A DNA stretch of 64,000 bases from Craspedostauros australis (lineage: Eukaryota > Bacillariophyta > Bacillariophyceae > Mastogloiales > Achnanthaceae). The position numbers and the translations under genes are program-made. A model generated the notes under the pieces. It saw only the letters and a program-made list of their open reading frames with translations. It was not told where the DNA came from and did no database searches. Positions 21,369 to 39,351 of the stretch are shown here, piece after piece; position 1 is the first letter of the stretch; every line of letters begins with the position of its first letter. The stretch spans positions 1,029,001 to 1,093,000 of the forward strand of contig JAMXDE010000009.1 in NCBI GenBank assembly GCA_026770025.1, in the 5' to 3' direction.

Positions 21369-23702
21369 TCAGGTTGTCGCCGTTGTCGAAGATGCTGCTG
21401 TTGCCGTTGCGCCACCGAGAGCAGACTTCTTGAATTGCAAACGCCACTTGTCACGTTCGTAGGTTTCGTCCATCTCGGCGCAGAACTGCTCAAAGTCTCT
21501 CAGCGTCACCACCCCATCACCTGTCGTGTCGGCGAAGGAATGAACGAATTGCGCCAACGACAACTCACGATCGTCAACGGAGAAGTCCAGCAGCTCCTTC
21601 AGGGCGAGCTGGATCTCTTCAACTGTCACGGTGCCGTCGCCGTTCTGGTCCAACACCGCCAACCGCCCTTCCGGGTCGCAGGTGTTCACGTCGCATTCGT
21701 CTTCACCGTCCAGTTCTTCGGTGATGGCATCCCACAGCTTCCTCCATAGATTCCTCGCGAAGTACGCCATCAGCTCGGCATGGATATTGATGTACGCACC
21801 CTTGGGCGGGATGAATTCGGGATGGTCGGTGTAGTACTTCGTCCATGGTGGGCATTGGCCGTTCGTCAGGTCGGAAATCTTCGTGCCCACGCGGTAGATG
21901 CGGTCCGGATCCAGAGGTTCGCCGTCCACGTGCGTAACGGTGTTGGTCTCGGCATCTTCGATCACGCCCTGATCATACTGCAGCCATCCGGGGATGGGTT
22001 CCCCTGCGTGCGTGGCTGCGATGCCCTCCGCCAGCAACCAACCCGGCATGGGCAGGACGGCGATCACTTCATCCGGCTTCACCTCCGCCTCCAGCGCTTC
22101 CAACGAAAAGAAGCTGCCGAGCGGGTAATCGGCGTTGCCGCGCACGTTGCCGCCCATCAGGAGGATCGCATCCAGCTTGTGGCTGCGTTGGCGTCGCGCG
22201 ACGTTCATGGAGGAACGGATCAGCGAGCACAGGTAGATACCCATCGTGCAGACGCTGCCGCGGCTGTTGTTGGAGGACAGCGGCTCGAATCGTGGCGGGA
22301 CGCGCGCCAGCTCCGTGTTGCGCAGCGGCTCCAGCACGTCGTACGCGCGTTCGTTGGTCTCCTCCAGCGCCTCGTCGACGGGCCAGTCCTCGCATTTTAC
22401 GAACTTGGCGCGAATCCGCGGTTTCTCGTCCTCCTTTGCCTTCCATGAAATCTCCAGCATCGTGGCGTACACCGCATTCATGCCAGGTTTCAGCAGCCTC
22501 GTGCCTTCGATGACTTCGTCGACGCGATGATGATCATGACCCGACAGGACGATTGGGAAATCGAATGTTCGGCAGGTGATTTCATCGTCGGGAACGTAGA
22601 GATGCTGCAGAGGGATGACCATGTCGCAGCTGTGCGGGTCGTCTTCCAGTATGGCCTTGTACTTTCGCAGCGTGTCCCACGGATTTGTCAATGTGGCACC
22701 GCCGAATGCTCCGGGCGACTTGAAATGCGCGTAGAGAGCGGGGTCGTCGGACAGCACCGCGATGAGGCCGACCTTGCGCGTCTGGCTTTGATCCGGCGAC
22801 GGGATTTCGATGACCTCGTATTCCTGCTGGTGCTCCATCTCGTCATGATCGAGCATGTTGGAATTGATCCAGGTGCCCTTGAAATTGCGAACGTGACGGC
22901 ACACCGCGCGGTGATCGATGTCTGCCTCGTGGTTGCCCCAAGTGAGGTAATCGAGGGGAATGGAATTCAAGGCGTTCATCATGCCGGCGCCGCGATCGAT
23001 GCCGGAGAGCAGGTAGGGGCTGAGGAAATCGCCGGTCAGCATGGAGACGACCTTGGCACCTGGATTCTGGCGCTTGGTCTCCTCAATCAATGTCTTGAAG
23101 GAAGCAAAGTTCTCGAGCGTGTACACGTCCGTGATCTGCAGGATGATGAGACGCGATTCCGTGGGCAACGGCGAGCGTGAGATGGAGGCTCTTGGTGCAG
23201 CCGAATGCTTGTCGGAGCCATCTGCTGCGCTGTCTTCAATGGCGTCGTCATCTTCCTCGTCATAATCAGGAATGAAGGTGACCTTGTCCTCTTGGCTGGG
23301 TGCACGTCCACCTCCTCTGGCGTTCCTCATGGCCATGAGGGCTGTGAGCGTGAGACCAGCGAATGCCTCAACGGAAGTGTCTGGTGCGATGGATGTGGCA
23401 GGCAGTAGGATGCCGAGGCACAGCAGCGCAAGTGCGGTAGTTGGTAGCAATGTACGAGTATTGACCTTGCTCCTCCTGAACGCCCTGCGGGTGGTGTGGC
23501 GTTTGAAGCTACTTCGTGATGGACTACTTGCACCGATGCTCCCGATTGGGCATGGATGTGAACGTGCATGTGATGCTTGATAGTCGTTGGTGCGACTGCA
23601 ATTGCGAGTGTAGTTGCAATGGCGACAAGGATCGGAATCAGAATGGCAATTGCTTTCGCGACCTCCAGCGCAGCCACGGTCGCAGGAGATTGTGGATGTC
23701 AT
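21369..23702 (-). CDS. 5'-nucleotidase-like metallophosphatase with C-terminal EF-hands
   Basis: From the only in-frame ATG ahead of the membrane segment (23702) the product is 777 residues; the frame is open further upstream but without an ATG. A basic/Ser-rich N-terminus is followed by a hydrophobic segment (about 83-103, LLPTTALALLCLGILLPA), probably a signal anchor. The calcineurin-like phosphoesterase domain starts near 184. Its motifs are LQITDVYTLENF, LTGDFLSPY, WGNHEADID and SGHDHHRVDEV, with the C-terminal nucleotidase domain after them (VRGNADYPLG). The usual D-x-H of motif I is D-x-Y. The tail has two canonical EF-hand loops, DQNGDGTVTVEE and DTTGDGVVTLRD, so calcium control is likely. 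Family members hydrolyse nucleotides or related phosphoesters; the substrate here is unknown. Confidence 0.85.
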   Translation of the reverse strand: MTSTISCDRGCAGGRESNCHSDSDPCRHCNYTRNCSRTNDYQASHARSHPCPIGSIGASSPSRSSFKRHTTRRAFRRSKVNTRTLLPTTALALLCLGILLPATSIAPDTSVEAFAGLTLTALMAMRNARGGGRAPSQEDKVTFIPDYDEEDDDAIEDSAADGSDKHSAAPRASISRSPLPTESRLIILQITDVYTLENFASFKTLIEETKRQNPGAKVVSMLTGDFLSPYLLSGIDRGAGMMNALNSIPLDYLTWGNHEADIDHRAVCRHVRNFKGTWINSNMLDHDEMEHQQEYEVIEIPSPDQSQTRKVGLIAVLSDDPALYAHFKSPGAFGGATLTNPWDTLRKYKAILEDDPHSCDMVIPLQHLYVPDDEITCRTFDFPIVLSGHDHHRVDEVIEGTRLLKPGMNAVYATMLEISWKAKEDEKPRIRAKFVKCEDWPVDEALEETNERAYDVLEPLRNTELARVPPRFEPLSSNNSRGSVCTMGIYLCSLIRSSMNVARRQRSHKLDAILLMGGNVRGNADYPLGSFFSLEALEAEVKPDEVIAVLPMPGWLLAEGIAATHAGEPIPGWLQYDQGVIEDAETNTVTHVDGEPLDPDRIYRVGTKISDLTNGQCPPWTKYYTDHPEFIPPKGAYINIHAELMAYFARNLWRKLWDAITEELDGEDECDVNTCDPEGRLAVLDQNGDGTVTVEEIQLALKELLDFSVDDRELSLAQFVHSFADTTGDGVVTLRDFEQFCAEMDETYERDKWRLQFKKSALGGATATAASSTTATT

Positions 23703-24478
23703 CTCCCCAGCAGGCCTTTTTGCTATTATGTGATCTTCAGCGTTGCTCACTTCCACCTGCTCGGATGTTTTCGGCAGAAGGATCTGGTTGGTGATGAATC
23801 TTCGTCGTCCAATGTCAGAAGTTGGGGAGTTCCTGCGAGCACGGTTGCGGGATCGCGGGCTTCGGAATGGATGATGCCCAAGTGACGTTCTCTTTTTTGA
23901 TGCTGCGTTCGGAGCCAACACCGGTGATACCGTCGATACCGATGCCCGGAGGGACCGCCCCTGCGAGAATTGGTTGCGCGAAAGGTCGGTTGGATGGACT
24001 GAATGCAAGAAGAAGAATGTACAAGACGAGGGGTATTCTACACCTTGAATGAATGAGGCAGGACGTTGATTGCTGATGGCGGAGTTGCAAACAAATGCCC
24101 ACACTCGTGATGGCTTGCCGGGTTCTTGCTTGTCTCTTTTTGTTTTGGTTGATGGGCGATGAGCGATGGACAGCAATGGTGATGACACCAACGAACAATG
24201 CGGTGGGGGGAGTCATTCATTGGAATTGGTTGACATCGTGTGGGTGATGACAGGAGGTGAGTTGCGTGCGTCGAAGTGCCAGGGGGGCAGTTCAAAATGC
24301 AATAATTGGCTCTATTTCATAGCGTTTAAGTCATAAATCGCTTGTTTCCGCCTAGTTCTTATCCTCGACGGAATAATATGGCATTTTCGTTCTTTTTTGG
24401 ATAATTGGTGCTTTCCCCCCAAAATTCGCCCGAGTTGCTTTCGCTCTTCGTCATTGCTCCATTTCCCCACTTTACACT
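23703..24478. other. Upstream region of the nucleotidase-like gene
   Basis: The frame remains open to 24191 without an ATG (its first codon is TTG), so an unseen 5' exon or non-AUG start cannot be excluded. The left end of the first Harbinger element begins near 24479. Confidence 0.4.
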
Positions 24479-24481
24479 GTG

Positions 24482-24575
24482 TCGGTGTTTGCTGAGCGTG
24501 TTTTCGTCTCCGGTCCGCGCAAAACAAGGCTGGGAGTTGTCGGAAAAGGAGAAAAGCTTACTTTTTATGTCGGAA
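24482..24575. repeat. Left terminal inverted repeat of H1
   Basis: Contains TTGTCGGA at 24537-24544 and ATGTCGGA at 24567-24574. It pairs imperfectly with 30533-30625. Confidence 0.7.
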
Positions 24576-24920
24576 TTGGCAAGACTAAGTACTTGATTAG
24601 ACATAAATATGTGGTTTGCACCCATCATGGTACTTTGTTTGTTCCTACTACTATTGAGTACTTAGTTAGTTCTCTCCTTTGTGTTTCTGTTTCTGTTGTT
24701 TTCGTTGTTTTTTGGTGTTTGTTTTGGTTTTGTTCGTACTGTTGTCGTTATTCTGTGTGATCTACTCTGGGGAGTAGTGCTCTCTGTCTGTGATTTCTGT
24801 GTGCTTTGCTGCTTCTCGTGTGATGTTTCTGGTGTTGACGCATTCACGCTGATGCGGTGATTTTGTTGTTGTTGTTGTTGACGCATCCAGGCTGATGCGG
24901 TGTGCTGCGTTGCGCTGCAC

Positions 24921-27035
24921 TTAGGCGTTCACAGTGTGCCCTGTTGCATCGGCAGACACAACACTGCCATTCACTCCATCAGGCATTCCTGCTGCAGCCC
25001 CGCCTGATACCTCATCCACTTTCAGGCGGAGCACATCATCACGACGCGGGGCGTCCTCACCATTGCGGGGGCGCACAGAACCCGTCAGAGGTGTCATCTC
25101 CATCTCGACAGTGGGGATGGAGCTCCCAGCACTGCTGGATTGAGAAGAGCTCCAGACTGGGTCGGGAACGCCACCACCAGGCAACCCGCTGGAGCTGTGG
25201 GCAGCCAGGGATGCGTTGGTGTGAGCTTGAAGGAGCTGCGCCTCAAGCTCAGCCAGCCGGGCCTGCGCATGCTGCTCACGAGCAAGAGCTTCGTTGCGCA
25301 TGGCCTCGAACTGGGTTCGAGCTTCATGCTCAATTCGGGCCTTGGCCTGGGCATCAAGCTGGGAGCGCTCTTTTGCCGCACGCAAGAGAGCCTCGCATTC
25401 GGCCCGTTCCTTGCGAGCTAGCTCTTGCGCTCGAGCAACTTGGGCCGCGGCCTCGCGCTCCATCTGCTGGCGAATCGCAGCAGTCTGGGCAGCATTCTGG
25501 GTGGTTGCTGCAGGGCTGGCAAACCCGCCACCAGAATTGGGAATCGGAGATCCAAACGGAGCAGGATGATGGTTGCCGCTGGCGCCGCCTGGTTGGGTTG
25601 GAGCAGGATGGCCAAAGGGGTGGGATCCGAATCCTTGTGCGGTTGGGGCTGCAGGCAAAGGCATGGTGGGATTGAAGGAGTACACCATCCCATCCAAGCC
25701 TCGGACGCCACGACGACCAGCCGTCCCAAACTGCTGCTGATTGAAGCTCTCTTGAAAAAAGCAGAATGTCACCAGTGTGGTGGTGCCGAGATAGTTCTCA
25801 ACTATCTCAAAGTTGGGCTCCTCGAGGTCCTTGGTCTTGACATTGCGGAAGAGACTGTCGATCTTCCTTGGGAGGCTGAACTGGCAGCTGACGACGAGCT
25901 CGCCTGCATCATCGGTGACCTTTCGAGCGAGGTCCTGGAAATAATTCTTAGCTGCCGCAAGGCTTGTAGAAAAATCCTTATCATAACCATAGACTCCGTA
26001 GATGCACTCTGCTGTGAAGTACATCTTTGGCACTTTGTAGGTCAGCTTCAGTGTCCATCCTTCATCCTCTGTAGACAGTGCCACAGAATCTGGATCCACC
26101 TTTGCGTCCAGGACCACAAACATGTGAATCCCCTCCCGGTAGCGCCCTGTTCCATTTGCAGCTGTCAATGGATCAAAAGCACGTTCAGTGAATGATCCGA
26201 GCTTGACCATGTCCAGTGCAGGGCTCATGGCGCGATCTGCACTACGGATTCCCATCTTGCCCATGGCATCCACGATGGTCTTGTCGTTGGGTGTGGCGTC
26301 GCGCTTGGGGGCAGGAGGAGGTGTTGGTTTGTTCACGTCTCGGACAGGGGGTCCACGAGGGCCTTGAACTCCACGACGAGGCATAATGAATGGTGGGGTA
26401 GCTTGAGAGAGATCGTCGTCAACGAATCCTGGGTCGAGCTCCAAGCTGTCTGAAGATACAGCAGAACCGAGACGATCAGAATGAACAGAAGGAAGGTAAC
26501 TTTCGTCGTCGTCCGAAGAAGAACCGCGAGCAAGATCAGCAGCAGGAGGGTGATTGGCATTGGTGTTGTTGACAGCGCCTTGTGCTGGTCGGTAGTTGAG
26601 GTTGATCCCGCGTTCTTGACGCAACTCTGCGAGGCGTTCTGTGGAATCCAGACCGCACCTCTTGCGAAAATCAGATCCAAATCCTGTGCACAGCGAAGCA
26701 AATCAGAGCTGTGTGAGAAGAGATTTGGTTCACGAGCATGTCAGGACAGTCGGCGATCACAATAATAGTCACAACAGAGAACATCACAAAACGGACGCAC
26801 CTTTTCCACTCTCGAGGAACTTCAGCAGACGGGCCCAACAATTGAGAAAATTCTTCTTCGTGTTCTTTTGGCTGTAGAGACTGTGCCACTCGACGTGCGA
26901 CTCCCAGAAGTTCGAGAAGCCTTCCTTGGTTGGTTGGAAGCGAGGAGGATTGGAGATGAAGCCTTTGATGATGTAAGCAGCGTGATCTCCTGCGGGTGAC
27001 CACCTTTGAGCTCGAGCAACTTGGATTTGTGCCAT
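24921..27035 (-). CDS. Harbinger partner protein: Myb-like exon 1, Hsp20-like middle, coiled coil
   Basis: Exon 1 is 27035-26801 and exon 2 is 26683-24921, with donor AAAG|GTGCGT and acceptor GCACAG|GATTTGG. The spliced product is 665 residues. Residues 1-78 are a helical, Trp/Phe-rich Myb/SANT-like domain (RWSPAGDHAAYIIKGF, FWESHVEWHSLYSQKN, NCWARLLKFLES). A disordered Ser/Pro stretch follows. Residues ~263-395 form a beta-rich module (DPDSVALSTEDEGWTLKLTY; CQFSLPRKIDSLF) whose strand pattern resembles alpha-crystallin/Hsp20 domains, which is inference. Residues ~480-577 are an Ala/Glu/Gln coiled coil. Myb-like partners of Harbinger transposases bind the termini and import the transposase into the nucleus. 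The gene at 35639-38215 has the same layout and intron position. Confidence 0.75.
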
Positions 27036-28245
27036 CTTGGAGGTAAGCTGAATTGTGGGCTTGTGATGGACACCCCTGTTACAGCAGATACTGCGAGTGC
27101 AACGCTGCAAACAACTTGACCAATGCTGGGAGATGGTATCATCGATCGATCAATCAGCTGTCTATTCAATTCAAACACGCAGGTAGGAGCAACGCAGCCA
27201 GACTACGGCAAGCATCCAGGCTGTCACATCCGTCATTGCCTGTTTCAATCAGCAGTATTGCACAGATGAGGAGGATCGTGGTGCGTACATGAGGGCATGA
27301 GGTGCCATCATCCTGTTTGGTTTGGAATGCAACTTCCTCGTGGGTCGAATTTGCTTTTTGTGGGAGCTCAGTTGGATTTGGTGAGCATACTCAGCTTCAT
27401 GTGCTTTGGACGGCTCGCTTGGAATGATGTCTTCAAATCTGTATATTGACCCTCCGACAAGAAATTCTTAGGAACCGACGGTATTCGTTTTTGGGGGGAC
27501 AAGTACCTGGTTTTCGCCGACAAGTCTCATGTGTGCTTTCCTACGCAACAGTCAGTAGTAGCTCACGTAGAAAACAAAAGACAGAATTTGTGGTTCACAA
27601 TTTCTGGTCCGACGAGTCAAAAGTTCTAGTCCGACGGTTACAAAAACGTTACTTTCCTTGCCTATTTAGTATCTGTCGGATGGAAATCGTGTACTTGTCG
27701 GATGCGGATTGTGTACTTGTCGGACGCCTTTTTGAAATGGTGTGGAGTGGAGTACTCGACTCTACTTGTCATTGGCTTGTGTCGAAGCCAGTCCCACCAA
27801 ACAGCATGTTGACCCTGTCGCACGACAGCTCATCGCAGAGGTGCGCTTTGGCCGATCGGCCTGTTCTCCGATTTGCGTTGCCACATGCAATGGAAGCAGA
27901 CACACGAACCAGGGGTGGTGCTTCACAACAACGATTCAAGTTGAGCACCAACATCTCTTGCTCCTCTCTCCTGCGTTGAGTTCAGACAAAGGGAGAACAC
28001 CATCCAACCCTTCCGGAGGTGGTCTCTTGGTGGAGGACATCATCTACTGGGATGTTCTGGTCAACGCAGAACCATGCTCTTCGGTTTTCGCATCGCCATC
28101 ATCACACAGCCAACATCAACCAAAGGCTACGAACACAACGTGATGCTCTGCTTCCAACGATTCAAATGTAGAGGGATGCGAATGGCTCCATGCCAGTGGC
28201 TGCATCTACTGGTGCAAGCCAGCAACCATTTACAGAAGAGAACAG
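27036..28245. promoter_or_regulatory. Divergent promoter of H1 with a TGTCGGA motif array
   Basis: The region between the two divergent genes carries at least seven copies of a (C/T)TGTCGGA-type motif in both orientations. On the minus strand they are at 27453, 27516 (one base off), 27608 and 27630 (variants). On the plus strand they are at 27673, 27695 and 27717. The last two sit in repeated TGTACTTGTCGGA units 22 bp apart. The same core occurs twice in each terminal repeat, so it is a plausible binding site of the Myb-like partner or the transposase. The remainder up to 28245 has open frames that may include an untranslated or additional 5' exon of the transposase. Confidence 0.6.
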
Positions 28246-29365
28246 ATGAAGCAAACAACTTCATCATTGGACACGGATTCTCCCAAGTCAGTTGGCCGAT
28301 CCTTCATGATTTGGAGAGGCAGGGACAGCCATCACTTCAGCTTCAACTTCTTCCTTCGATCCAATACCCAACCAATGTTGAATGGCGCCTACGATCAGCG
28401 ATACTCCATCGGCAGCGTGCAAGACTTTCTTGATCTTGCGCGCTACATCCTTCTCACCCCTGGTCAGTGCATCACCAATCTACGATGCCGATCAGGTGCA
28501 TTCGGGGAGGACTTTACCGTTGCATTTGGGATTTCGCCTCATCTCTGCTCTGTGCTGTGGGCACTTGCAGCACGTCGTGGGGACCTGAAGCCAAAGCATC
28601 TCCTTTGGGCCCTTTACTACATGCGGCACTACCCATCCGTGCGCATGGCATGCGTCTTCCTTCGGACCACAGATAAGACTCTCAAGCTCCATATCTGGTC
28701 AGCCATCAAGGCTGTAGCGGATTTGAAAAATGATGTGGTAAGTCCAAGGGGAATGCATTTCACTCACAATTGATTCAGCAACAAACAAGCTCACATCTTT
28801 TGCACTGCTTGTCTCTCTTCGACGTCACCATGAAAAGATCCTGTGGGAGAACCGATACTCAGGCGATTTGAACAGATCGTGCCTGGTCACTGTTGATGGC
28901 ACTGATTTCAAGATCAACGAGCCAACCCCATTTGACCGCAAGTGGTATTCGCACAAGTTCCGATCGGCTGGAATCAGATATGAGATCGCTGTGTCGATCC
29001 AAAAGGGGGATATCGTATGGATGAATGGTCCGTTTGCTTGTGGGCGGCACCCAGACCTCAAGATCTTTCGCTCTTTGCTGAAACAGTACTTGGATGATGG
29101 TGAGATGGTGGAGGCTGATCGTGGATACCGCGGTGACGAAGCTGTCCGAACATCCGATGATTTTGTTACAGAGGCGGAGAAGCAAGCCAAAAGCCAAGCT
29201 CGTGCTCGCCATGAGACTGTGAATGGCCGCTTCAAGAATTGGAAGATCCTGGAGCATCGTTTCCGCCATGACCTGATGTTGCACAAGCATGTGATGAAAG
29301 CAATTGTCACTATAACCCAGCTTCAAATCGAACATGGCAACTCTCTATTCCAAGTACAATACTAG
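28246..29365 (+). CDS. PIF/Harbinger DDE transposase (H1)
   Basis: Exon 1 is 28246-28737 and exon 2 is 28838-29365 (donor GTG|GTAAGT, 100-nt intron, acceptor AAAAG|ATC, phase 0), giving 339 residues. Exon 1 holds the helical N-terminal part typical of algal/oomycete copies (FGISPHLCSVLWALAARRG; KPKHLLWALYYMRHYPSV). Exon 2 holds the DDE domain: first Asp in LVTVDGTDFKI, the WYSHKFRSAGIRYEIAV stretch, second Asp in EADRGYRGDEA, and catalytic Glu in RARHETVNGRFKNW. The triad and the conserved RW/GYRG context are intact. The ATG at 28246 is the first in this frame after a stop; an upstream exon is possible. The enzyme cuts and pastes into three-base targets (TWA or CWG in the family). Confidence 0.85.
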
Positions 29366-30532
29366 ATCATACAAGTTTCAACAATACTGAGGGATTCGTG
29401 GTCTGGAACGCATCTTGCAACAGCAACCAGGAGATTGAATCGCGTCGAATCCGGCAAATAGAAGAGCACTGCACCACCACTCATATACTATAATTGCATT
29501 AGATCTATTCTCAACTATTCTATTGACCAGATACACCACACCTTGTCCTAAACTGTGAGACAATGCAGCAATTCTGGGATGGGTAGGACGTCAACGAGCA
29601 CGTAAGCGCAGCACGATGAGAAAGCGCTGCACTACTCTGTGTGCGCCAAATTGTGTGCGCTCTTCAGACAGTCAACTCGAGAACAAAGCGCAGCGAAGGA
29701 GACCCAATCGAGGAACCCCTTTCGCTTGAGTGTGTACAACATTGCTTCGTATTCAACGATACGAGACTCAACAACGCGACCATGGAGGTACGATCTCTCT
29801 CTCTCTCTCTCTCTCCAGAGGGAGTATGCTGCGGTGTGCGTGCGCGGTCTGCACATGTTGCAACAAAATGTAGCGTGTTGGCGCGTGATCAGCTCTGACA
29901 TCATTGCATGGGACAAGGCTTCATACTCTATCAACATCGATTGGGCTGCTACTCCTTGAGTCTGCTGCTATCAATGTTGCACAAAGATGGATGAGAGTGA
30001 CACCCAGTGCATAACGATGTGAAGAGTGACGATTGGTGGTTGGTCATCAGGCCACCTCGCATTGTGGTGATTTTTTGCCGTGCGATACTGCTGGTGGATT
30101 CCTTGCACTCTACCCTACAGGCAACTCTCACTGATGGGAATCAAACGCATCACATCGTCAAGAAGGTAAATGGCGTGGGGTCAGGAACGATACTCGATCG
30201 TCCCTGGTGGGCTTTTGATGAGTTCAATATAACAGTAGTACAAGCCAACAAACCAGAAGACAAGGACTTGTTCTGCCAACCAAGACGACAGTGCGCTTTC
30301 CGGACCACCGCAGCAAAGTGTGACGAGAATGAGCAACACCAAAACACCGCCGCAGCGAGGAAATCCCATCTCCACACACGCCACAATGCGGGACTCAGAA
30401 ATGATCGTTTGCTCTCGTGAACCAACTCGGCATTCTTGTAGTAGTCGTATGAGTCGAACATCTCGAATCGAGTGCGCTCCATCACGTGTGGCGAACTGGC
30501 AACTGGCAGTTTCTTGTCATTTGTGAACAGAC
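29366..30532. other. 3' region of H1
   Basis: No credible gene. A CT dinucleotide run lies at about 29794-29815. Short frames on both strands look random. Confidence 0.45.
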
Positions 30533-30625
30533 TCCGACACAAAAAACGCGATTTTCTCTTTTTCCGACAACTCCCTGCTGTCTTGGGCCAGCGCAGAGCA
30601 CACAAAACTCACAACCCCAACACTC
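30533..30625. repeat. Right terminal inverted repeat of H1
   Basis: TCCGACAC at 30533-30540 and TCCGACAA at 30563-30570 mirror the two motifs of the left end with the same 30-bp spacing. Confidence 0.7.
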
Positions 30626-31673
30626 TCCACAGAGATCATTGCTCCACAGAGCACTTCGTTCCTGTTACAATCACAATCACAACCACAACCACAACCACAA
30701 CAATAACAACAACAACAGGTACACCAACATCACCACTGCAACAGTGTTTCGTCCATGGGTGGCTCCTGTATGCGATGCAACTGGAATTCATCTTTTCGAA
30801 CAGTTCTTCCTGCACCAGCAATGATGTCCGGTGAATTAGTTGCTTGGTTGCCACTGTGCCACAGCAACAATGGAATGCTTGGCTGTAGTTCGTTGTATAC
30901 CTCAATTTGTGTTTGATACACGTTGTGTTCGCCCATCATGCAGATCGAACAAGGGGCTTCCTGTGGGTGGCTGCATTCCCTCCATGCACATGACTGTCCA
31001 TTTGCTTGCACTCCTTGTCCTGGTCTCCGGATGACCAGGACCGCCATGGTAGGATCGCAACCGAGGTGATTTTCTCCACACCTTTTCTCTCTGGATTTTG
31101 GTGTCCTTCTTTTGTTGTTGTCAGGTGTGTTGGTACAGCCGTTCGTTCCTTTGTTGACATGTCAATGACTATCCTTTGTTGTTGGGAATGAGGTTCATGT
31201 GCATGCTCGTATTGTCGGTTCTGTTGAGATCATCAACATACAGTGGGGCATTTTAGTGTCGACCTTCTAGGCAACGCAAAAACACTCCCAAGCTGGTGGG
31301 GATGCCAAGCTCCTTTTCGTACATCCGCATTATCTACATGCCACCCTCAAGCAAGGTGCATTGCAGTGAACAGCTAAACATGCATTGTGTTGTGGAACCA
31401 TAACAGTGTTGTGTTGGCCATTCGTGCTACATGGTTGTTGTAGTCTTTTCTCTGGAGGTGCCTGTGTTGTTTTCCGTTTTCCTTCTCACAGCATGGGTGC
31501 TCGCACATGCATGCACGCTCTTCCGCAATTCACTGACAGCCACAACAAACTCCATTGCGGGTAGCACCAACGCAAATGACAAACAACAACGCAGCTACTT
31601 GTGCAACACCAGATGAACGATACGACATTGAGGTAGGGACTATGTGAGAAAATTATATTATGCACCAGACGGC
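30626..31673. other. Region between H1 and H2
   Basis: Holds an ACAACC-type simple repeat (about 30667-30720). A small hairpin, TCCTGGTC/GACCAGGA with a 7-bp loop, lies at 31018-31040. No gene is visible. The left end of H2 should lie here, but I could not match it to the right side. Confidence 0.45.
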
Positions 31674-32910
31674 TCACTCCCGTCCAGAGCTGCTGTCATC
31701 GCTGCTTGCACTGCCACTCGTCGGGCTGCTGCTGACGCTCCCACTTGTTGTGCTGCCACTCATGCCCTCGCTTGTTGTGCTGTCGTCCATGCCCTCGCTC
31801 GTTGTGCTTTTGCTCTTGTCGCTTCTGGCTGCTTCCTCCACCATTTCCTCCATATCCACCTCCCGTGAGGCGGCTGCTCCTGAGGGGGGCGCCAGTGATG
31901 CCACCCAATTCTCCATTTCCCTGATATCCGCCATGGTCTCCTGCAGGTCAAACAAAGGATTTTCATCCTGCAGGTCAAACAAAGGATTTTCATCCTGCAG
32001 TTCGAATTGTGTGATAGCTGCGATGGCATACATTGCCAATTGGTGTTTGCAAAGTTGGTGCCGCCACTCCACCCGCAAGCACTTCCAGTTTTTGAAGCGT
32101 TTGTGAACTGTTTCGTGCCTTGCACGTATCACTCCATTGTATCTGGTCCTCTCAATGCAACACGAAGGCTCACCCCTGTAGCCTTGATCCGCAATCACCT
32201 GCTCCCCTTCGTCCAGTTCCTGCCTCAGCTTGCGTCGAAAAATGGTTACATCATTCCACTCCCCACATGGAAATGGACCCTCGACCCAAACAAGATGGCC
32301 AGTCTGAATGCACACACCAGTCTCGTATCTGAGGCCTGCTCCATTGAATTTGTGAGAGTACCAATCTGTGTCGAAAGGATTGGGCTCCACAATCCGAAAG
32401 TCGGTGCCATCCACGGACATGAAAACAGTGTTGTGACCAACACTGCCATTCTTGCGTTCCTCTATTCTGATCTGCAGTGATACAAAAAGGAACTTGAGCA
32501 TGTGCAAGGGATGTGAGTCATGTCAGGCAAGCACACGCATTCAAGTCATCTCCACACACAGCACCAAGTTCACTCACCTTTGTTCTGCTCAGTCGTGCAA
32601 TGCCTTCCAAAACAAGCCATGTCCACTTCATTAATGTTCTGCGATCCCTATTCAGCATCACTGAAAGAATCTCCCATGGAACGTATTGCTTCAGGAACAC
32701 GAGTGCACCAAGCATGTGGTTGATTGTGGTGTTGCCTGGTAGCAGCCCGTCTTGTGTCAGTGCTGTCCATACTGCAGAAGCCACTGCGATGCTGGTCCCA
32801 TACGTCCTGCAGAAAAGGATGGTGAGCCATGGGAGTTGCTCCATGCAAGTGAGCATGTCCACGTTGCGACCCACAATTTGCATACCAGAGTGGGCAATCT
32901 CAACCTCCAT
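31674..32910 (-). CDS. PIF/Harbinger DDE transposase (H2)
   Basis: Exon 1 is 32910-32578 and exon 2 is 32471-31674 (donor AAG|GTGAGT, 106-nt intron, acceptor CTGCAG|ATC, phase 0), giving 376 residues. Exon 1 carries the helical N-terminal region (GNTTINHMLGALVFLKQYVP; RRTLMKWTWLVLEGI). Exon 2 has the DDE motifs SVDGTDFRI, WYSHKFNGAGLRYETGV, VIADQGYRG and RARHETVHKRFKNW, so all three acidic residues are present. Near the C-terminus a perfect 27-bp tandem duplication (about 31942-31998) repeats LFDLQDENP. A low-complexity Ser/Thr/Gly tail follows that the H1 enzyme lacks. Confidence 0.87.
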
Positions 32911-33454
32911 CGTCTTCTGAATGAGTCATTGCGAGGTGGAGCAAGTTGATGCGCAATGTAGTGGATTGGATGTTGGCTTGATGGTGGATCGGATACTGTC
33001 GTGGGCAGGTATTGTGAGAAGTAGTTGATTCGGTTGCTTGCGTGTGATTGTTGGCCGTAGTTGTTGTTGACGCCAATACTTTGTTGGCATCAGGCGGCAT
33101 GTGAGTTGCTGTCGAGGTGCAGCCGATGGCCATCGCACATTGATGCTGACATCTCGAGAAGCAGAGTCCGCCATTTGCTGCATTGCACAGCAATCACTTG
33201 CAATACACGGTGATGCAGAACACAAAGATTTCCGTGTTTGTCTCCGCGATCTGTTGGCTGGTGGGAGTATTCGCGCGCTGTTCTCTCAACGCGAGTTGGT
33301 CTTGGGTCATGTTCCTCGGCTTCCTCAGACATTCCACAGAACACTCACTGACATCGACATCATTCACGAACATCCATGCAAGGTGTCCGTAAGACAAATC
33401 GAGGCTTATAACATGGATACATATTCAGTCCCTTTCCGCGCAAGCCATCCATTT
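32911..33454. other. Upstream region of the H2 transposase
   Basis: 544 bp before the minisatellites. No gene; probably the transposase promoter. Confidence 0.45.
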
Positions 33455-34035
33455 GGTTGAAACATAGTATATCAATGACACAGGAGCGTTCCGATTCATA
33501 CAAGCCCTCCATTTGGTTCAAAAAGCGTTTATCAACAGCACAGATTAGTTCTTATCCATACAAGCCCTCCATTTGGTGGAAAAACGTTTACTACAGATGC
33601 AGATTAGTTGTTATCCATACAAGCCCTCCATTTGGTTCAAAGAGCGTTTATAATGACACAGATCCGGTCTTATCCGTACAAGCCCTCCATTGGGTGGAAA
33701 GAGCGTTTATCAATGGCACAGATCAGTTCTTATCCATACAAGCCCTCCATTTGGTTCATAGAGCATTCACTACCGGATAAGATTATTTCTTATCCGTATA
33801 AGCCATCTGCTTATGTTCATAGAGCATTCACTACCGGATAAGATTATTTCTTATCCGCATAAGCCATCTGCTTATGTTCATAGAGCATTCACTACCGGAT
33901 AAGATTATTTCTTATCCGCATAAGCCATTTGCTTATGTTCATAGAGCATTCACTACCAGATAAGATTATTTCTTATCCGCATAAGCCATCTGCTTATGTT
34001 CATAGAGCATTCACTACCGGATAAGATTTGTTCTT
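33455..34035. repeat. Minisatellite with 60-bp then 61-bp units
   Basis: About five units of 60 bp (containing TTATCCATACAAGCCCTCCA and GGTTCAAAGAGCG) pass into about four units of 61 bp (containing TTCATAGAGCATTCACTACC and TTATCCGCATAAGCC). The two unit types share TTCTTATCC and the (A/C)AAGCC(C/A)TC core, so one evolved from the other. Each 61-bp unit includes a small palindrome, GGATAAGATTATTTCTTATCC. Frames through the units are accidental. Confidence 0.93.
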
Positions 34036-34619
34036 ATGGTGCTATTCATATGGATAAAACTGCGCCTATCACATAAACATAGGTGCAAATCTGCCCTTAT
34101 AAGCCCGCGTTAAAGCAATATTGGCGGCTATGGGCCAGAATCAGATGCATTTCTGACCCTTATGCGCTATCCATAAGGACGCGATGAGTCTTACAACATA
34201 GGCTCAATTTTGTTTCGTCCTCACAGCAGTTATGCATAAGACGCAAATAGTGCTTTTGAAGCCGTCCATAAGGCCAAAACAGCGCTTATAATTCTATCCA
34301 TAGAGGTGTTTTCGACACTATGGAGCCGTCATAAGACTGAATTGGATGTTACGACTACTTCGACTCAATATGAAGCACTATGCCTATCCAATGTGACCAA
34401 CACGCCGTATTCGTAAGTCCAATATATTCCTTATCACACAGGCATCATTTTAAGTGCTTCATGACACCAATCCAAACGGTGAATATTACCCTTATGGAGT
34501 GGTCATAACGCAATTTTCACCCTCAAAAAGTGATTCATAAGGCCAAATTAGCCCTTGTGAACCCGGCATAGACGTTAATTCATCCTTTCCCGCGCTCCAT
34601 ACACTCAAATATTGCGTAT
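34036..34619. repeat. Degenerate repeat zone between the two minisatellites
   Basis: Recurrent CTTATxxG/CATAAG words at roughly 50-70-bp intervals suggest decayed copies of the neighbouring 60/61-bp unit. Alignment is weak. No gene. Confidence 0.5.
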
Positions 34620-35060
34620 GAAGAGGACCGATTATGCCTTTAACAGAAGCGCAAAAGTGCGTTATGATCGTAGGACCGATTATGCCTTTAACAGAAGCGC
34701 AAAAGTGCGTTATGATTGTAGGACCGATTATGCATTTAACAGAAGCGCAAAAGTGCGTTATGATTATAGGACCAAGTATGCCTTTAACAGAAGCGCAAAA
34801 GTGCATTATGATTGTAGGACCGATTATGCATTTAACAGAAGCGCAAAAGTGTGTTATGATCATAGGACCAAGTATGCCTTTAACAGAAGCGCAAAAGTGC
34901 GTTGTGATCGTAGGACCAAGTATGCCTTTACCAGAAGCGCAAAAGTACGTTGTGATCGTAGGACCGATTATGCCTTTAACAGAAGCGCAAAAAGTGCGTT
35001 GTCACCGTAGGACCAAGTACGCTTTCAACGCAAGCGTAAAAAGTGCCTTGTGAACGAAGG
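34620..35060. repeat. 48-bp minisatellite, about nine units
   Basis: The unit begins AGGACCGATTATGCCTTTAA and continues with CAGAAGCGCAAAAGTGCGTT. Because 48 is a multiple of three, several frames on both strands are open through the whole array (R-T-D-Y-A-F-N-R-S-A-K-V type). I regard these as accidental. Confidence 0.93.
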
Positions 35061-35638
35061 ACCGATGCTGTACCTACGCATTGTGGTTCCGAAGACGAAC
35101 ATTGGCCCTCCTTCGCGTTGTCGCCATCCCGCGAATGGCTTTTCGCGCTTGCAGCAACTTGGTTACGCCCCTTTGACATTGGCCATTGTTACAGTTTGTA
35201 CGGGGAACAGTACACCCTTCTTGGGCACCGGTGTCTTTCGCCACGGACAGGAACACAAAAAACACTTCAAGCCAATGCAAGTATCTCCTGACATTTCTTT
35301 TCTGATGTTCAGATGGCCACGAATTACAATCGTTGTACGTGTGTGTGCAAGACACCAACACGCGTCACCAGCGCATGTAATGCGTCGTCGGCAAGAAATT
35401 GCTGCGATGGTTGTTTGCTCGTTGCAAAGCACAGCATCTTCCATGTCCTTGGCAACCACACAGCAGCACCCCATGGCCAACTCTGCGAATGAGGACGACA
35501 CAAACCGCATCACGCCAACGTACACACATCCATTGCGCCAAACACTGCTGCTCTCTCGCAGGTGCACTTCAATGGAGCCTTGAGTTGAGCAGAGGTGCCC
35601 TTTGTCACACAAATCAGAAACACAACCAACCACCGATC
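35061..35638. promoter_or_regulatory. Upstream region of the H2 partner gene
   Basis: 578 bp between the 48-bp array and the ATG at 35639. The reading frame of the gene is open upstream to 35399, but the ATG beginning MTPPRKRAP is the best start by comparison with the H1 partner. Confidence 0.45.
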
Positions 35639-38215
35639 ATGACGCCACCAAGGAAACGAGCCCCTTGCTTCATGAAAAGGGGAGTCGACGCCAAGCTCCT
35701 CATCCGTGAGCTTGCAGCTGATCCCAACTTGTGGATGTGGGAGCCTCGCCACATCCGAGACAAGTATCCGACCCTCGCAAAGTATCCAGCAAAGAACTTC
35801 ATCAAAGGGTATGTGATGCTGAAGAAAACGCTCGTGAAGAACAAGATCTTCTTTGGTAAGTCAACTCCAATGCAGGCAACGTGTGGGCCCGACCACTCGG
35901 TGGACACATTCGTTTGGGGTGGTGGCGATTGCCCTGTTGCATTTCTTGTCCTCAAACTTTGCTTTGATCATGCTGCACAAACACATCACAACTCACAAGC
36001 AACCACTCGATCTCTTCATCTGTTTGCTTTTGTGAGGGTTTTGGCAGCAAATGGACGCTTCAATCCAGACGCATCAGGTAACTTGGGCATGCATCTTCGC
36101 CCCATCGATGAGCCAGAGGGCTTCGACAACACAAAGCCCTCGAAATCTCCTCCTGCAAAGGCCGTCGCAGAAACCACAACAACACCCACAATGACAGCAC
36201 TCTCCGAAAACGCTGCCACCAACACAGACAAGAGCTGCCATGGAGAAGGGGATCAAAACCCATCTTCGCAAATGGCATCAAGCACCAATGGGTCGGTCCC
36301 AAATGTTGCCTTCCTCAATGATGACTGGGCCATGGGCGACTTTGGCGAGGAAATTTCATCAGTGTTTGGTCGAGAAATGGACTTCGATGATGACATTGAA
36401 GTTGTGGGCATGACAGGCCCTCCACCATACAACTCACTGACAGCAAGATATGGTCATTTCTTTGACATGGCCGAGAACTCTCGCGTCGCCCAGTTCTCTT
36501 CCATCCCAACACATGTGGACGTCTTCTACACTACACAATTGTGGAAGCCGAAGGGAGAGGCATTCCGGATGATCAGCATCGACTTCTACATGCCTGCAGC
36601 CACCATCCAGCAGGATACACAGCTGACCATTCAATATCGCGAAGTGGGTGGGGTGCCTCGGCCCTTTGTGGTGCTGAAGTATCGGCCTCCAGTGGCCATT
36701 GGAGCAAAGGGGGGTATTGCAAAGGCCATTTGCAACCTTCAGGCGACCCGCTTTGTCGATGCAGCACAGAAGGCACAGGCACACGACCTGCAAATGCAGA
36801 AGGCCGGTTTTGCAAAGGGGCACTGGTGCGAAATGCTCGTGCCGATGCCCTTTGCTATCGACACCATGTTCTGCCCATCCGCTTGCGGCACGCTGGGGGG
36901 CGTTGTCTGGCTCAATCATGTGATGCCAGACAACAATGGGCAACCACGTAAAGTCCTCATCTTGTCGACGAGGGTGAAGGAGAAGACAAAGACTGTGGGA
37001 ATGACGTGCAAGTTTTCAAAAATGCACGCACTTGGTTTCAACTCAGGCGGAACCAATGCCATCGACAAAGGGGCCAAGTCACAAATGCTACCTTCACAGT
37101 CACACAGAATCCCCCAATACACGGACAACAACAGCAACTCCAGCAACCCGCCATCTGCCAGCAATGCCCAGAAGGTGACCCCATGGCCACAACCCTTACA
37201 ACCCAGGAGCCCAATGGGCAGCCGCATTCAACAACGCTTCCGATCGGCAAGAACGACAAAGAATCTCCGCACCTTTGGAGCACGCAACATGCTTCATGGA
37301 GACGATCAATCAGTCACGACGCAGGTGACTCAGGTGTTGGAAGCCCAACTCGAATGCCAGGTTGAGAGGGTGGCCGAACTTGAGCTGAGGGTGGCACTGC
37401 GAAAGCAGGCTGCCAGAGAAAGGGCAGAGCTGAGACGGCAAGGACAGCTCAACCAGAGCCGTCCGGGAATGGTGGTGACTGGTGGTACAGCTTCTGACGA
37501 GGCTGCCAGAAACCTTCCTGATGGCGTCTTCAACAAAATGGACGACCTCACCAGACCGTATTTCGTAAAGGGCCAAGGATCAGTCCAGCACCCGGCAATG
37601 ATGCAGAATGGTCAGACTGGGACGGGCAACATGCAGTCGACGAATCCGCAGCAACTCAGCACAGGACAGATCCTTCCGCACGGACGGGAGGAAGGAATAT
37701 CGGCAACAACAACAGCTCAGATGTCTCCTCCACCACCACGAGATGTTGATCCATGTGAAGGAATGCTGGTCCTTGCGGACCAAGCCAACAAACTGACAGA
37801 GGCAGCAGCGGTGGGAGCAGCAGCAGCAGAAGCAACCAACCTTGCAACTGCAACAACCACCATCACAGCGGGGTCCACAGCTGTAAATACGAATCAGAAT
37901 CTGGAAGGAGAGAATGTAAGGCAATTCGCAGGCAGTGCAGGAGCTCAGATGACCAGTCAGGAGGCGCCAAACCAACCTGAAGGCGGAGGGGATGGGCCAA
38001 CAACCAACTACTCCTTGGTCGAAGATGTTGAGATACTGCAGGACCCAACAGCACCATTGAATGTTGATGAGGCACCATTGAATGTTGACGAGGCACCATT
38101 GAATGTTGACGAGGCACCATTGAATGTTGACGAGGCAATGGACATGACCGGAGATGGAGAGAGGCAGGGTGACAATGGAGGCAGTGACGGAAACGAGCAT
38201 GACACAACAAACTAA
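35639..38215 (+). CDS. Harbinger partner protein (H2): Myb-like, Hsp20-like middle, coiled coil
   Basis: Exon 1 is 35639-35855 and exon 2 is 36048-38215 (donor TTTG|GTAAGT, acceptor TTGGCAG|CAAATGG, phase 1), giving 794 residues. The 192-nt intron has no stop and is a multiple of three, so retention would add 64 residues. Residues 1-72 are a basic helical Myb/SANT-like domain (KRGVDAKLLIRELAADPNLW; ARYPTL-type turn; FIKGYVMLKKTLVKNK). Residues ~227-375 match the H1 partner's beta-rich module in pattern (DTQLTIQYREVGG; EMLVPMPFAIDTMF; VLILSTRVKEK). A coiled coil covers ~494-540. Near the C-terminus a 21-nt unit (A-P-L-N-V-D-E) is repeated four times, followed by an acidic end. Role: probably transposase partner for terminus binding and nuclear import. 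Confidence 0.78.
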   Translation: MTPPRKRAPCFMKRGVDAKLLIRELAADPNLWMWEPRHIRDKYPTLAKYPAKNFIKGYVMLKKTLVKNKIFFGKSTPMQATCGPDHSVDTFVWGGGDCPVAFLVLKLCFDHAAQTHHNSQATTRSLHLFAFVRVLAANGRFNPDASGNLGMHLRPIDEPEGFDNTKPSKSPPAKAVAETTTTPTMTALSENAATNTDKSCHGEGDQNPSSQMASSTNGSVPNVAFLNDDWAMGDFGEEISSVFGREMDFDDDIEVVGMTGPPPYNSLTARYGHFFDMAENSRVAQFSSIPTHVDVFYTTQLWKPKGEAFRMISIDFYMPAATIQQDTQLTIQYREVGGVPRPFVVLKYRPPVAIGAKGGIAKAICNLQATRFVDAAQKAQAHDLQMQKAGFAKGHWCEMLVPMPFAIDTMFCPSACGTLGGVVWLNHVMPDNNGQPRKVLILSTRVKEKTKTVGMTCKFSKMHALGFNSGGTNAIDKGAKSQMLPSQSHRIPQYTDNNSNSSNPPSASNAQKVTPWPQPLQPRSPMGSRIQQRFRSARTTKNLRTFGARNMLHGDDQSVTTQVTQVLEAQLECQVERVAELELRVALRKQAARERAELRRQGQLNQSRPGMVVTGGTASDEAARNLPDGVFNKMDDLTRPYFVKGQGSVQHPAMMQNGQTGTGNMQSTNPQQLSTGQILPHGREEGISATTTAQMSPPPPRDVDPCEGMLVLADQANKLTEAAAVGAAAAEATNLATATTTITAGSTAVNTNQNLEGENVRQFAGSAGAQMTSQEAPNQPEGGGDGPTTNYSLVEDVEILQDPTAPLNVDEAPLNVDEAPLNVDEAPLNVDEAMDMTGDGERQGDNGGSDGNEHDTTN

Positions 38216-39351
38216 GCAGCAACCACGTGAGAAATAGATACACACCTTTGAAGAATCTATTGTGGATGTAGTGTGCTCATGATAGTCGGAACAAACGAGG
38301 AAGTACTGAATGGTTGATTTGTACCACAAGAAGAATGACATTGTGTGGGTAGTGGGAGAGTAGAAGGAAGCACAAGTTGGCCATGACAATGAGGAATGTC
38401 CGGACAACACACACGATCAGGCAACAGGGTGTAAAAGTCAAAAATGGAGCCACGAATCTGGGTTTTGCATAAATCAGGATGATTGTGCAAACAACTGACA
38501 GGAAGAAGGCTGAAAGATGGCAAATTTTCAGTTTGGTTTTTGACTTTTGAACTGCTGATTATGGAAGAAACTGTTGTTGCCTTATCATGGGAAATGAAAA
38601 ATTACCGTCTTTCCCCCCCCCCCCCCAGAAGACGGAAAAAGGAACTTGGTCCGTCGCGGGCACTTCACGCGCGTGAAATTGTTCGTCGGTTGTTGAGGAT
38701 GGAGCGAACGGTCTGCCCATCTGTCCGTTGACACCCAACGACATCACTTGATTGCGGAACATCATTGACATTTCTTGTGTTCTTCGAAGAAATTCGATTC
38801 CTTTGATGTTCGACCACCGTGACCACATAGATTCCAATCAGTCGAATATCTGAGTTCGCGCTATTTTTCGGACGGTTGGAAGTTTGCGCCAAGACAGTCG
38901 GATGGTGTTGACAAATTGCATCACGCACGATGGACGCGATTCGAGAATGGAAGGAGGAACGAGGTTCGCTACGCAAGAGCAGAACGCATTGCGCGAAGGC
39001 GCACTCGTATTGGCGTGTGATACCACACACTTGGAACAAGAGACAGGAGAGGGATGAGGTGAAACATCGCATCATTCCATTGCCATTTGGCTGATTCGCA
39101 CCGAAACAAGAAGGAGAAGAAGGCAACACGAAGTGGGAGCAGGAAGCAGGTGCGAAGAGAGGAGGAGACAACAAGGAAAGCGCAACCAACGCAACCAACG
39201 CAAACAAGTGCAAAGAAGCGCAAACCAGAGGTGGAAGCCGAAGCAGGACGTTGGCAACGGCGCCCACCGAAGCAAGAAGAGAGCAACAAGGTGTCGCAAC
39301 CAAGCATCGAAGCAAGTATCCAACCAAGCACACAAAATATCAACACAGAAG
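38216..39351. other. Intergenic between H2 and PDS5
   Basis: 1.1 kb with a 14-C homopolymer at 38613-38626 and no recognisable gene. It should include the right end of H2 and the PDS5 promoter. A long minus-strand frame (39072-39560) overlaps PDS5 exon 1 and is its shadow. Confidence 0.45.

Follow-up and report, generated by a model that had tools for sequence, protein, structure and literature searches.

Nested Harbinger elements and their genes

The window analysed in this work, a 64,000-nucleotide stretch of DNA from the diatom Craspedostauros australis (C7:1029001-1093000 of a genome assembly of 74.8 Mb in 90 contigs), contains two PIF/Harbinger elements, E1 and E2, which are placed in this group by their transposases, by the duplications that flank them and by their two-gene content. 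Besides a transposase, each element encodes a partner protein (P1 in E1, P2 in E2), and the subject of this report is the beta-rich central module of these partners. The module is very probably shared across the partners and linked to the transposon, and profile comparisons point to a divergent fold of the HSP20-like superfamily, nearer to CS/p23 than to the small heat-shock proteins, as its most likely nature.

The P1 gene lies on the minus strand and consists of two exons encoding a product of 665 amino acids (aa). Exon 1 (26801..27035), a short N-terminal segment that is 83% identical in the genomic locus L034 and has no Pfam match, is followed by a phase-1 intron (26684..26800; GTGCGT donor, CACAG acceptor), within which the exon-1 frame stops, at 26784. 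Exon 2 (24921..26683, in a 593-aa open frame at 24921-26702) encodes a linker, the central module (25728..26150; IHMFVVLDAKVDPDSVAL...SLPRKIDSLF...TTLVTFCF), a Pro-rich part, a coiled-coil-like helical part and a tail. The P2 gene, on the plus strand, also has two exons, with a product of 794 aa. Its short exon 1 (35639..35855, again without a Pfam match) ends at a GGTAAGT donor and is followed by a phase-1 intron (35856..36047; GTAAGT...GGCAG), the 192 nucleotides (nt) of which contain no in-frame stop, so that read-through is conceivable. Exon 2 (36048..38215, its frame being open to 38215) carries the module at 36509..37003 (FRMISIDFYMPAATIQQDTQLTIQY...PMPFAIDTMF...VLILSTRVKEK; 17 members in the family alignment), and near its end a 21-base unit is repeated about four times (38051-38137, a PLNVDEA repeat). 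The splice sites of both genes were read by eye from the sequence, without RNA. The plan that the sequence-only reading had proposed for the two partners, namely a short N-terminal exon with a phase-1 intron after it, the motifs SLPRKIDSLF and PMPFAIDTMF in the central part and a C-terminal coiled coil, was recovered in both genes, the last item as helical coiled-coil-like stretches of 108 residues in P1 (25188..25511) and of 47 residues in P2 (37301..37441), which were assessed by a simple count of runs free of Pro and Gly and a crude heptad score, with no coiled-coil program.

The transposase of E1 is represented by a DDE exon on the plus strand (28742..29365), in which DDE_Tnp_4 (PF13359) is matched at 28892-29314 (C7:1057892-1058314 in the genome search) with 45 bits at a cut-off of 24.8; an open frame at 28144-28773, seen by eye and without a Pfam match, is a possible preceding exon. 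In E2 the corresponding exon lies on the minus strand (31674..32522; DDE_Tnp_4 at 32013-32414, C7:1061013-1061414, 31.6 bits at the same cut-off), with a possible preceding exon, likewise seen by eye and without a Pfam match, in the open frame 32518-32925. The E2 transposase frame also contains a 27-base direct repeat (31939-32000).

E2, the outer element, extends over 24282..38624, has GGGGGG...CCCCCC ends and is flanked by a CCA duplication (24279-24281 and 38625-38627). As possible terminal repeats it shows only the G-run and C-run and a 19-nt inverted pair inside the ends (24287-24305/38537-38555). In the E2 copies L118/L119, L120/L121 and L122/L123 the match to the window ends within 4-6 bases of the E2 ends, and these three copies are flanked on both sides by TGT, CAT and CAA. 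A 3-bp duplication is present in all four E2 copies examined and is unambiguous in the one with TGT. The right end, and with it the CAT, CAA and CCA duplications, is uncertain by one to a few bases owing to the C-run there. The inner element, E1 (24533..30574), has the ends GGAGTTGTC...GACAACTCC, inverted arms of 46 nt with 83% identity (24529-24574/30533-30578) and a CTG duplication (24530-24532 and 30575-30577). The match to the window ends at 24529-24533 in 27 of the 30 P1-related loci, the next triplet being C-N-G in 24 of the 27; the remaining three are the window copy itself, a locus matching 13 bases further and a locus with a separate match to the E2 left end. At the position that E1, flanked by a CTG triplet on each side, occupies in the window, the three other E2 copies hold the uninterrupted site AAGGCTGCTGTC (AAGG-CTG-CTGTC). 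Since these copies show the empty site, E1 sits inside E2, in the left subterminal part of it, and, as a correction, the two elements are therefore not neighbours. That some copies are nearly identical and carry matching duplications suggests that the elements were active recently, an advantage for experiments.

Between its two genes E2 contains long tandem arrays (33441-35066) with units of about 60, 61 and 48 bases, which are possibly candidate binding repeats. Outside E2, a long open frame on the minus strand (21369-24212), by eye similar to a 5'-nucleotidase with EF hands, has its upper end 70 bases from the E2 start, and the insertion may touch the promoter or leader of this frame.

Further partner families and their linkage to transposases

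The shared plan is wider than the two elements of the window. In the genome of C. australis the P1 family gave 58 matches, which were merged from fragments into 47 loci, and the P2 family, for which 62 of 82 candidates were scored, gave at least 66 matches merged into 58 loci. Four transposase neighbourhoods without a partner of the P1 or P2 type were opened, and three of them (L063, L064 and L106) held new divergent partners of the same plan, designated P3, P4 and P5; in the fourth (L107) no partner was found within the 5.5 kb taken, the nearest one noted being a P5 copy at a distance of about 10 kb. The searches with the new families gave 47 matches for P3 (37 loci), 78 for P4 (72 loci) and 11 for P5 (8 loci, two of the matches being P3-like). 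Eight weak rows of the P3 search (E >0.1), one row of the P4 search (E 0.458) and the two P3-like rows of the P5 search were excluded before counting. A phase-1 GT donor after the N-terminal segment was found in P3, P4 and P5 as well, that is, in all five families, the donors of the three new ones having been read by eye from the genomic context and the acceptor for P3 only.

The partner loci were compared in position with a set of 278 DDE_Tnp_4-type loci of this genome, which derives from lists in which 150 of 227, 138 of 337 and 150 of 357 candidates were scored; the rows of these lists not entered singly (79, 14 and 64) all map within the same 278 loci. In total, 195 of the 222 partner loci have such a match at a distance of 15 kb or less (P1 42/47, P2 52/58, P3 30/37, P4 63/72 and P5 8/8), and the orientation of these linked pairs is divergent in 178 cases, tandem in 11 and convergent in six. 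Random placement on 19 of the 90 contigs, carried out before P5 was included, gave 10.9% on average and 15.9% at most in 200 draws. Counted in the reverse direction, a module partner is near 191 of the 207 DDE loci found with the two transposases of the window. The outcome that would have refuted the proposed association, homologues never found near Harbinger transposases, is thereby excluded for this genome. Copies within a family are not independent, and the linkage counts consequently overstate the number of independent events, the five families being the safer count.

Only eight of the 71 DDE loci added solely by the Pfam search are near a module partner. The one such locus that was inspected, L001, has a 444-aa frame and no partner in its 1.5 kb flanks, and loci of this kind may use another partner or none. 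Frames of 433-444 aa characterise L001-L008, which form a second DDE_Tnp_4 group. A P1-like subgroup, 8 of the 42 linked P1 loci, has partner and transposase in tandem; it comprises the groups L040-L042 and L043-L045 (on C6, C16, C39, C2, C4, C32, C15 and C7), the latter group with a change of frame after the first half of the module. Next to L063 lies a triosephosphate isomerase-like frame, identified by eye, with a signal-like start that holds GSEAF; this stretch is perhaps reminiscent of plastid signals as they occur in diatoms and related algae.

Homology and fold of the central module

The relation between the modules was assessed by profile comparisons, the scores of which were judged against column shuffles (40, 60 or 300 per comparison). 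The family alignments were made without L060 (P2; two stops), without L083 (P3; one stop) and, in P4, without the near-duplicates L075, L077, L079 and L084. Profiles of P1, P3 and P5 were further merged into T1, from which L043-L045, trimmed before the frame change, were excluded, and those of P2 and P4 into T2. When the P1 and P2 family profiles were compared head to head, the similarity was not significant (prob 0.8; the score was reached by 4 of 60 shuffles). The homology of P2 and P4 is clear, with a prob of 91.9 and an E-value of 7.2e-7 over 151 collinear columns, and none of 60 shuffles reached the score after realignment. Within T1 the P5 search gave two P3-like matches, with E-values of 0.0075 and 0.012, and the joins between the families are weak: 20.2 for P1-P3 (null maximum 20.1), 22.0 for P5-P1 (21.8) and 23.1 for P5-P3 (19.1). 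T1 and T2 themselves align over 96 columns with a score of 32.0 (prob 30, E 5.5e-4), which none of 60 shuffles reached, the best of them scoring 15.7; LPRKIDSLF comes to stand opposite MPFAIDTMF, a match that the program was not given. The earlier claim that P1 and P2 carry the same central module thus holds by way of the merged lineages and is not significant in the direct comparison. The failure of that comparison and the weak T1 joins are what could be said for a chance similarity, in which unrelated beta-rich segments of P1 and P2 were paired by eye; this explanation is largely refuted by the alignment of the merged lineages, which scores twice as high as the best shuffle and includes the very motif noticed by eye, and is further opposed by the P2-P4 homology and by the exon and phase-1 donor plan common to all five families, so that we regard it as very improbable.

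For the fold, reference profiles were built mainly from the same genome: CS (PF04969; the domain of p23, SGT1 and NudC) from 9 of the 12 CS hits, HSP20/alpha-crystallin (PF00011) from all 10 own-genome hits and two bacterial loci, and a C2 beta-sandwich decoy from 10 of 23 hits. As a positive control, HSP20 against CS scored 37.7. T2 scored 28.0 against CS and 21.4 against HSP20, values that were not reached in 300 shuffles each (maxima 18.1 and 19.8), and 13.7 against the C2 decoy, which was reached by 1 of 60 shuffles. The first half of T2 matched CS with a prob of 64.9 (E 6.1e-5) and HSP20, more weakly, with 23.5 (E 8.7e-4), with 0 of 40 shuffles reaching the score; the matched stretch is a strand-LPxGT-strand hairpin. 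The first half of T1 is marginal against both CS (16.6, null maximum 14.2) and HSP20 (16.5, null maximum 16.1), and once the insertion columns were removed its HSP20 score was reached by 1 of 40 shuffles. In the second half of the module the order of motifs is as in Hsp20, without a score; by eye, the whole order is a hairpin, an LP turn and closing strands. Hence, of the Hsp20 fold that had been proposed for the module, the first strand pair stands in T2, where CS is matched best and HSP20 next, and marginally in T1, whereas the second half is without signal and detection by PF00011 does not bear it out: PF00011 detects 10 genes in this genome, none of them a partner locus. From the CS/p23 domains the partners differ in that they are undetected by the Pfam model, that the hairpin is followed by a longer segment, probably containing a helix, and that the second half is unmatched.

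A number of results weigh against an HSP20-like fold. The merging into T1 and T2 was chosen after the single families had failed, the P1 or P2 family alone scoring against HSP20 and CS at values reached by 3-24 of 60 shuffles. The superfamily signal spans only 24-35 columns, and the second halves of T1 and T2 are at shuffle level against HSP20, CS and C2. T1 taken as a whole scored 17.7 against HSP20 (null maximum 17.3), over only 14 columns and in a different place, and the P4-HSP20 prob depends on the alignment, being 18.3 and, after realignment, 4.5. Neither Pfam searches of the partners, the module families and the N-terminal exons, nor a sequence search of the PDB with the module profiles of P1, P2 and P4 and an exon-1 profile of the T1 lineage, gave anything relevant. 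Single-sequence AlphaFold models were of low confidence (pLDDT 48.9 for P1 and 40.3 for P2), and a Foldseek search, made with the P1 model alone, returned no match with E <0.1. The strand order of the P1 model, three strands followed by a helix of 11 residues and four more strands, besides three 4-residue helices, is at this confidence no more than a hint in favour of the fold. No relatives of the partners were found in viral contigs (P1 and P2 families) or in prokaryote contigs (P2 family only); an Hsp20 query found the two bacterial Hsp20 loci that entered the HSP20 profile and none in the viral contigs.

Alternatively, the module could be a beta domain peculiar to Harbinger elements, with a different or new fold, still binding the transposase or itself, in which the CS/Hsp20-like strand pair is a local convergence on a generic strand-LPxG-strand hairpin. 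The confinement of the signal to one hairpin, the empty Pfam, PDB and Foldseek results and the approximately 60 residues between the strand groups in P1 and P4, more than in Hsp20, favour this possibility; on the other hand, the two lineage profiles, built separately, match one and the same position of two superfamily profiles that are related to each other (T1 marginally) and do not match C2, and the motif order is identical. On balance we consider it a possibility of some weight, although doubtful, and regard a divergent HSP20-like fold that serves as a protein-docking domain, both parts taken together, as having about even chances.

Possible role of the module and comparison with known Harbinger systems

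The constraint on the different parts of the partner was estimated from the ratio of nonsynonymous to synonymous substitution rates (dN/dS) between P1 and L034. The module gave 0.084, the lowest value of six regions. Next came the Pro-rich part with 0.17 and the stretch before the module with 0.22, then the tail (0.28), the coiled coil (0.29) and the linker (0.46), the last of which overlaps the stretch before the module. Nine more pairs of module stretches from P2, P3 and P4 gave 0.09-0.21, and the P2-L046 pair 0.26; all these ratios are rough, since dS exceeds 1 in several pairs. On the zebrafish model of Harbinger transposition, the module would be the best candidate for gripping the transposase, since no other part of exon 2 is under stronger constraint in the P1-L034 pair.

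The N-terminal exon had been described as Myb-like, a claim that the profile searches did not bear out. No Pfam Myb, SANT or MADF match was obtained in any of the five families at E<=10, a limit above the value of about 0.1 beyond which the HMMER filters discard most matches, and against a profile of 14 Myb repeats of this genome (out of 29 hits) the exon-1 profiles did no better than chance, their scores being reached by 29 and 17 of 60 shuffles. Exon 1 of P1, P3 and P5 is alignable, with 11 invariant columns in four sequences, and a divergent three-helix domain in it is conceivable; by analogy with the known Harbinger pattern, exon 1 may be Myb-like in nature. Since the N-terminal exon has no recognisable Myb profile, contact with DNA could be made elsewhere, and the module might be a DNA-binding or end-recognition domain that acts with this exon on subterminal repeats. 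Such a role would agree with the long internal repeats in E2 and with the binding of element-end DNA by Harbinger partners, as described in the available excerpts of PMC9710019. The module families, however, are by eye rich in hydrophobic strands and not conspicuously basic, and no DNA-binding family was matched, which makes this role unlikely.

The partners (ORF1-type) of this large two-gene PIF/Harbinger lineage share one ancestral plan, in which a short putative DNA-binding N-terminal exon and a phase-1 intron are followed by the beta-rich module and by a tail that ranges from low-complexity to helical; between the two strand groups of the module a helical segment is probably inserted. Most likely the module is a docking domain, which would attach to the transposase of its own element or allow the partners to oligomerise. 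On the zebrafish model, the N-terminal exon would hold DNA, so that the catalytic subunit reaches the ends of the element, and the coiled coil would pair the partners. The partner would also take the transposase into the nucleus, as proposed from zebrafish Harbinger3.

Judging from the superfamily matches, a fold of chaperone type may be what the partner uses in handling the transposase, chaperone action as such being only a possibility. In the extreme case the module would be a true co-chaperone, which recruits host Hsp90 or Hsp70 or itself keeps the transposase soluble. CS, of the p23/SGT1/NudC type, being the best superfamily match speaks for it; against it stands the fact that CS and Hsp20-like folds are often plain protein-binding domains, and we hold a co-chaperone role to be improbable. 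Equally improbable, in our estimate, is its fuller form, a Harbinger lineage with its own p23/SGT1-like co-chaperone domain that would mature or assemble the transposase before DNA binding, possibly via host Hsp90. In this fuller form, transposition would be coupled to the state of the host stress proteins. Returning to the docking domain, a second conserved module across five diverged families points to a possible site of transposase contact or of complex assembly. If its fold is CS/Hsp20-like, a chaperone-type fold would be a working part of a DNA transposon, and the nuclear-import or assembly step would be testable by deletion of the module.

According to the available parts of PMC2836001 and PMC9710019, Harbinger transposition requires two proteins, the partners have been characterised chiefly via their Myb-like domain, and the zebrafish partner, besides contacting element-end DNA, binds the transposase, whose nuclear location depends on it. 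A point against carrying this model over comes from rice Ping, whose two proteins, as excerpted from PMC2836001, showed no significant change of location on co-expression in yeast; for this reason nuclear import by the partner is not general. Harbinger elements are also known in the diatom Thalassiosira pseudonana (PMC2806351, in the part available), where the likeness to our elements is their presence in diatoms, the comparison being by description only and without partner structure. No Hsp20, CS, p23 or alpha-crystallin part in a Harbinger partner was found in the open-access literature among the matches listed. With zebrafish Harbinger3_DR and rice Ping/Pong the elements of C. australis share the DDE_Tnp_4 transposase, the separate partner gene, the 3-bp duplications and, in E1, the inverted ends. 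They differ from the known partners in an N-terminal exon that matches no Myb, SANT or MADF profile and, as far as the accessible descriptions of the zebrafish and rice systems go, in the conserved beta-rich module that follows this exon.

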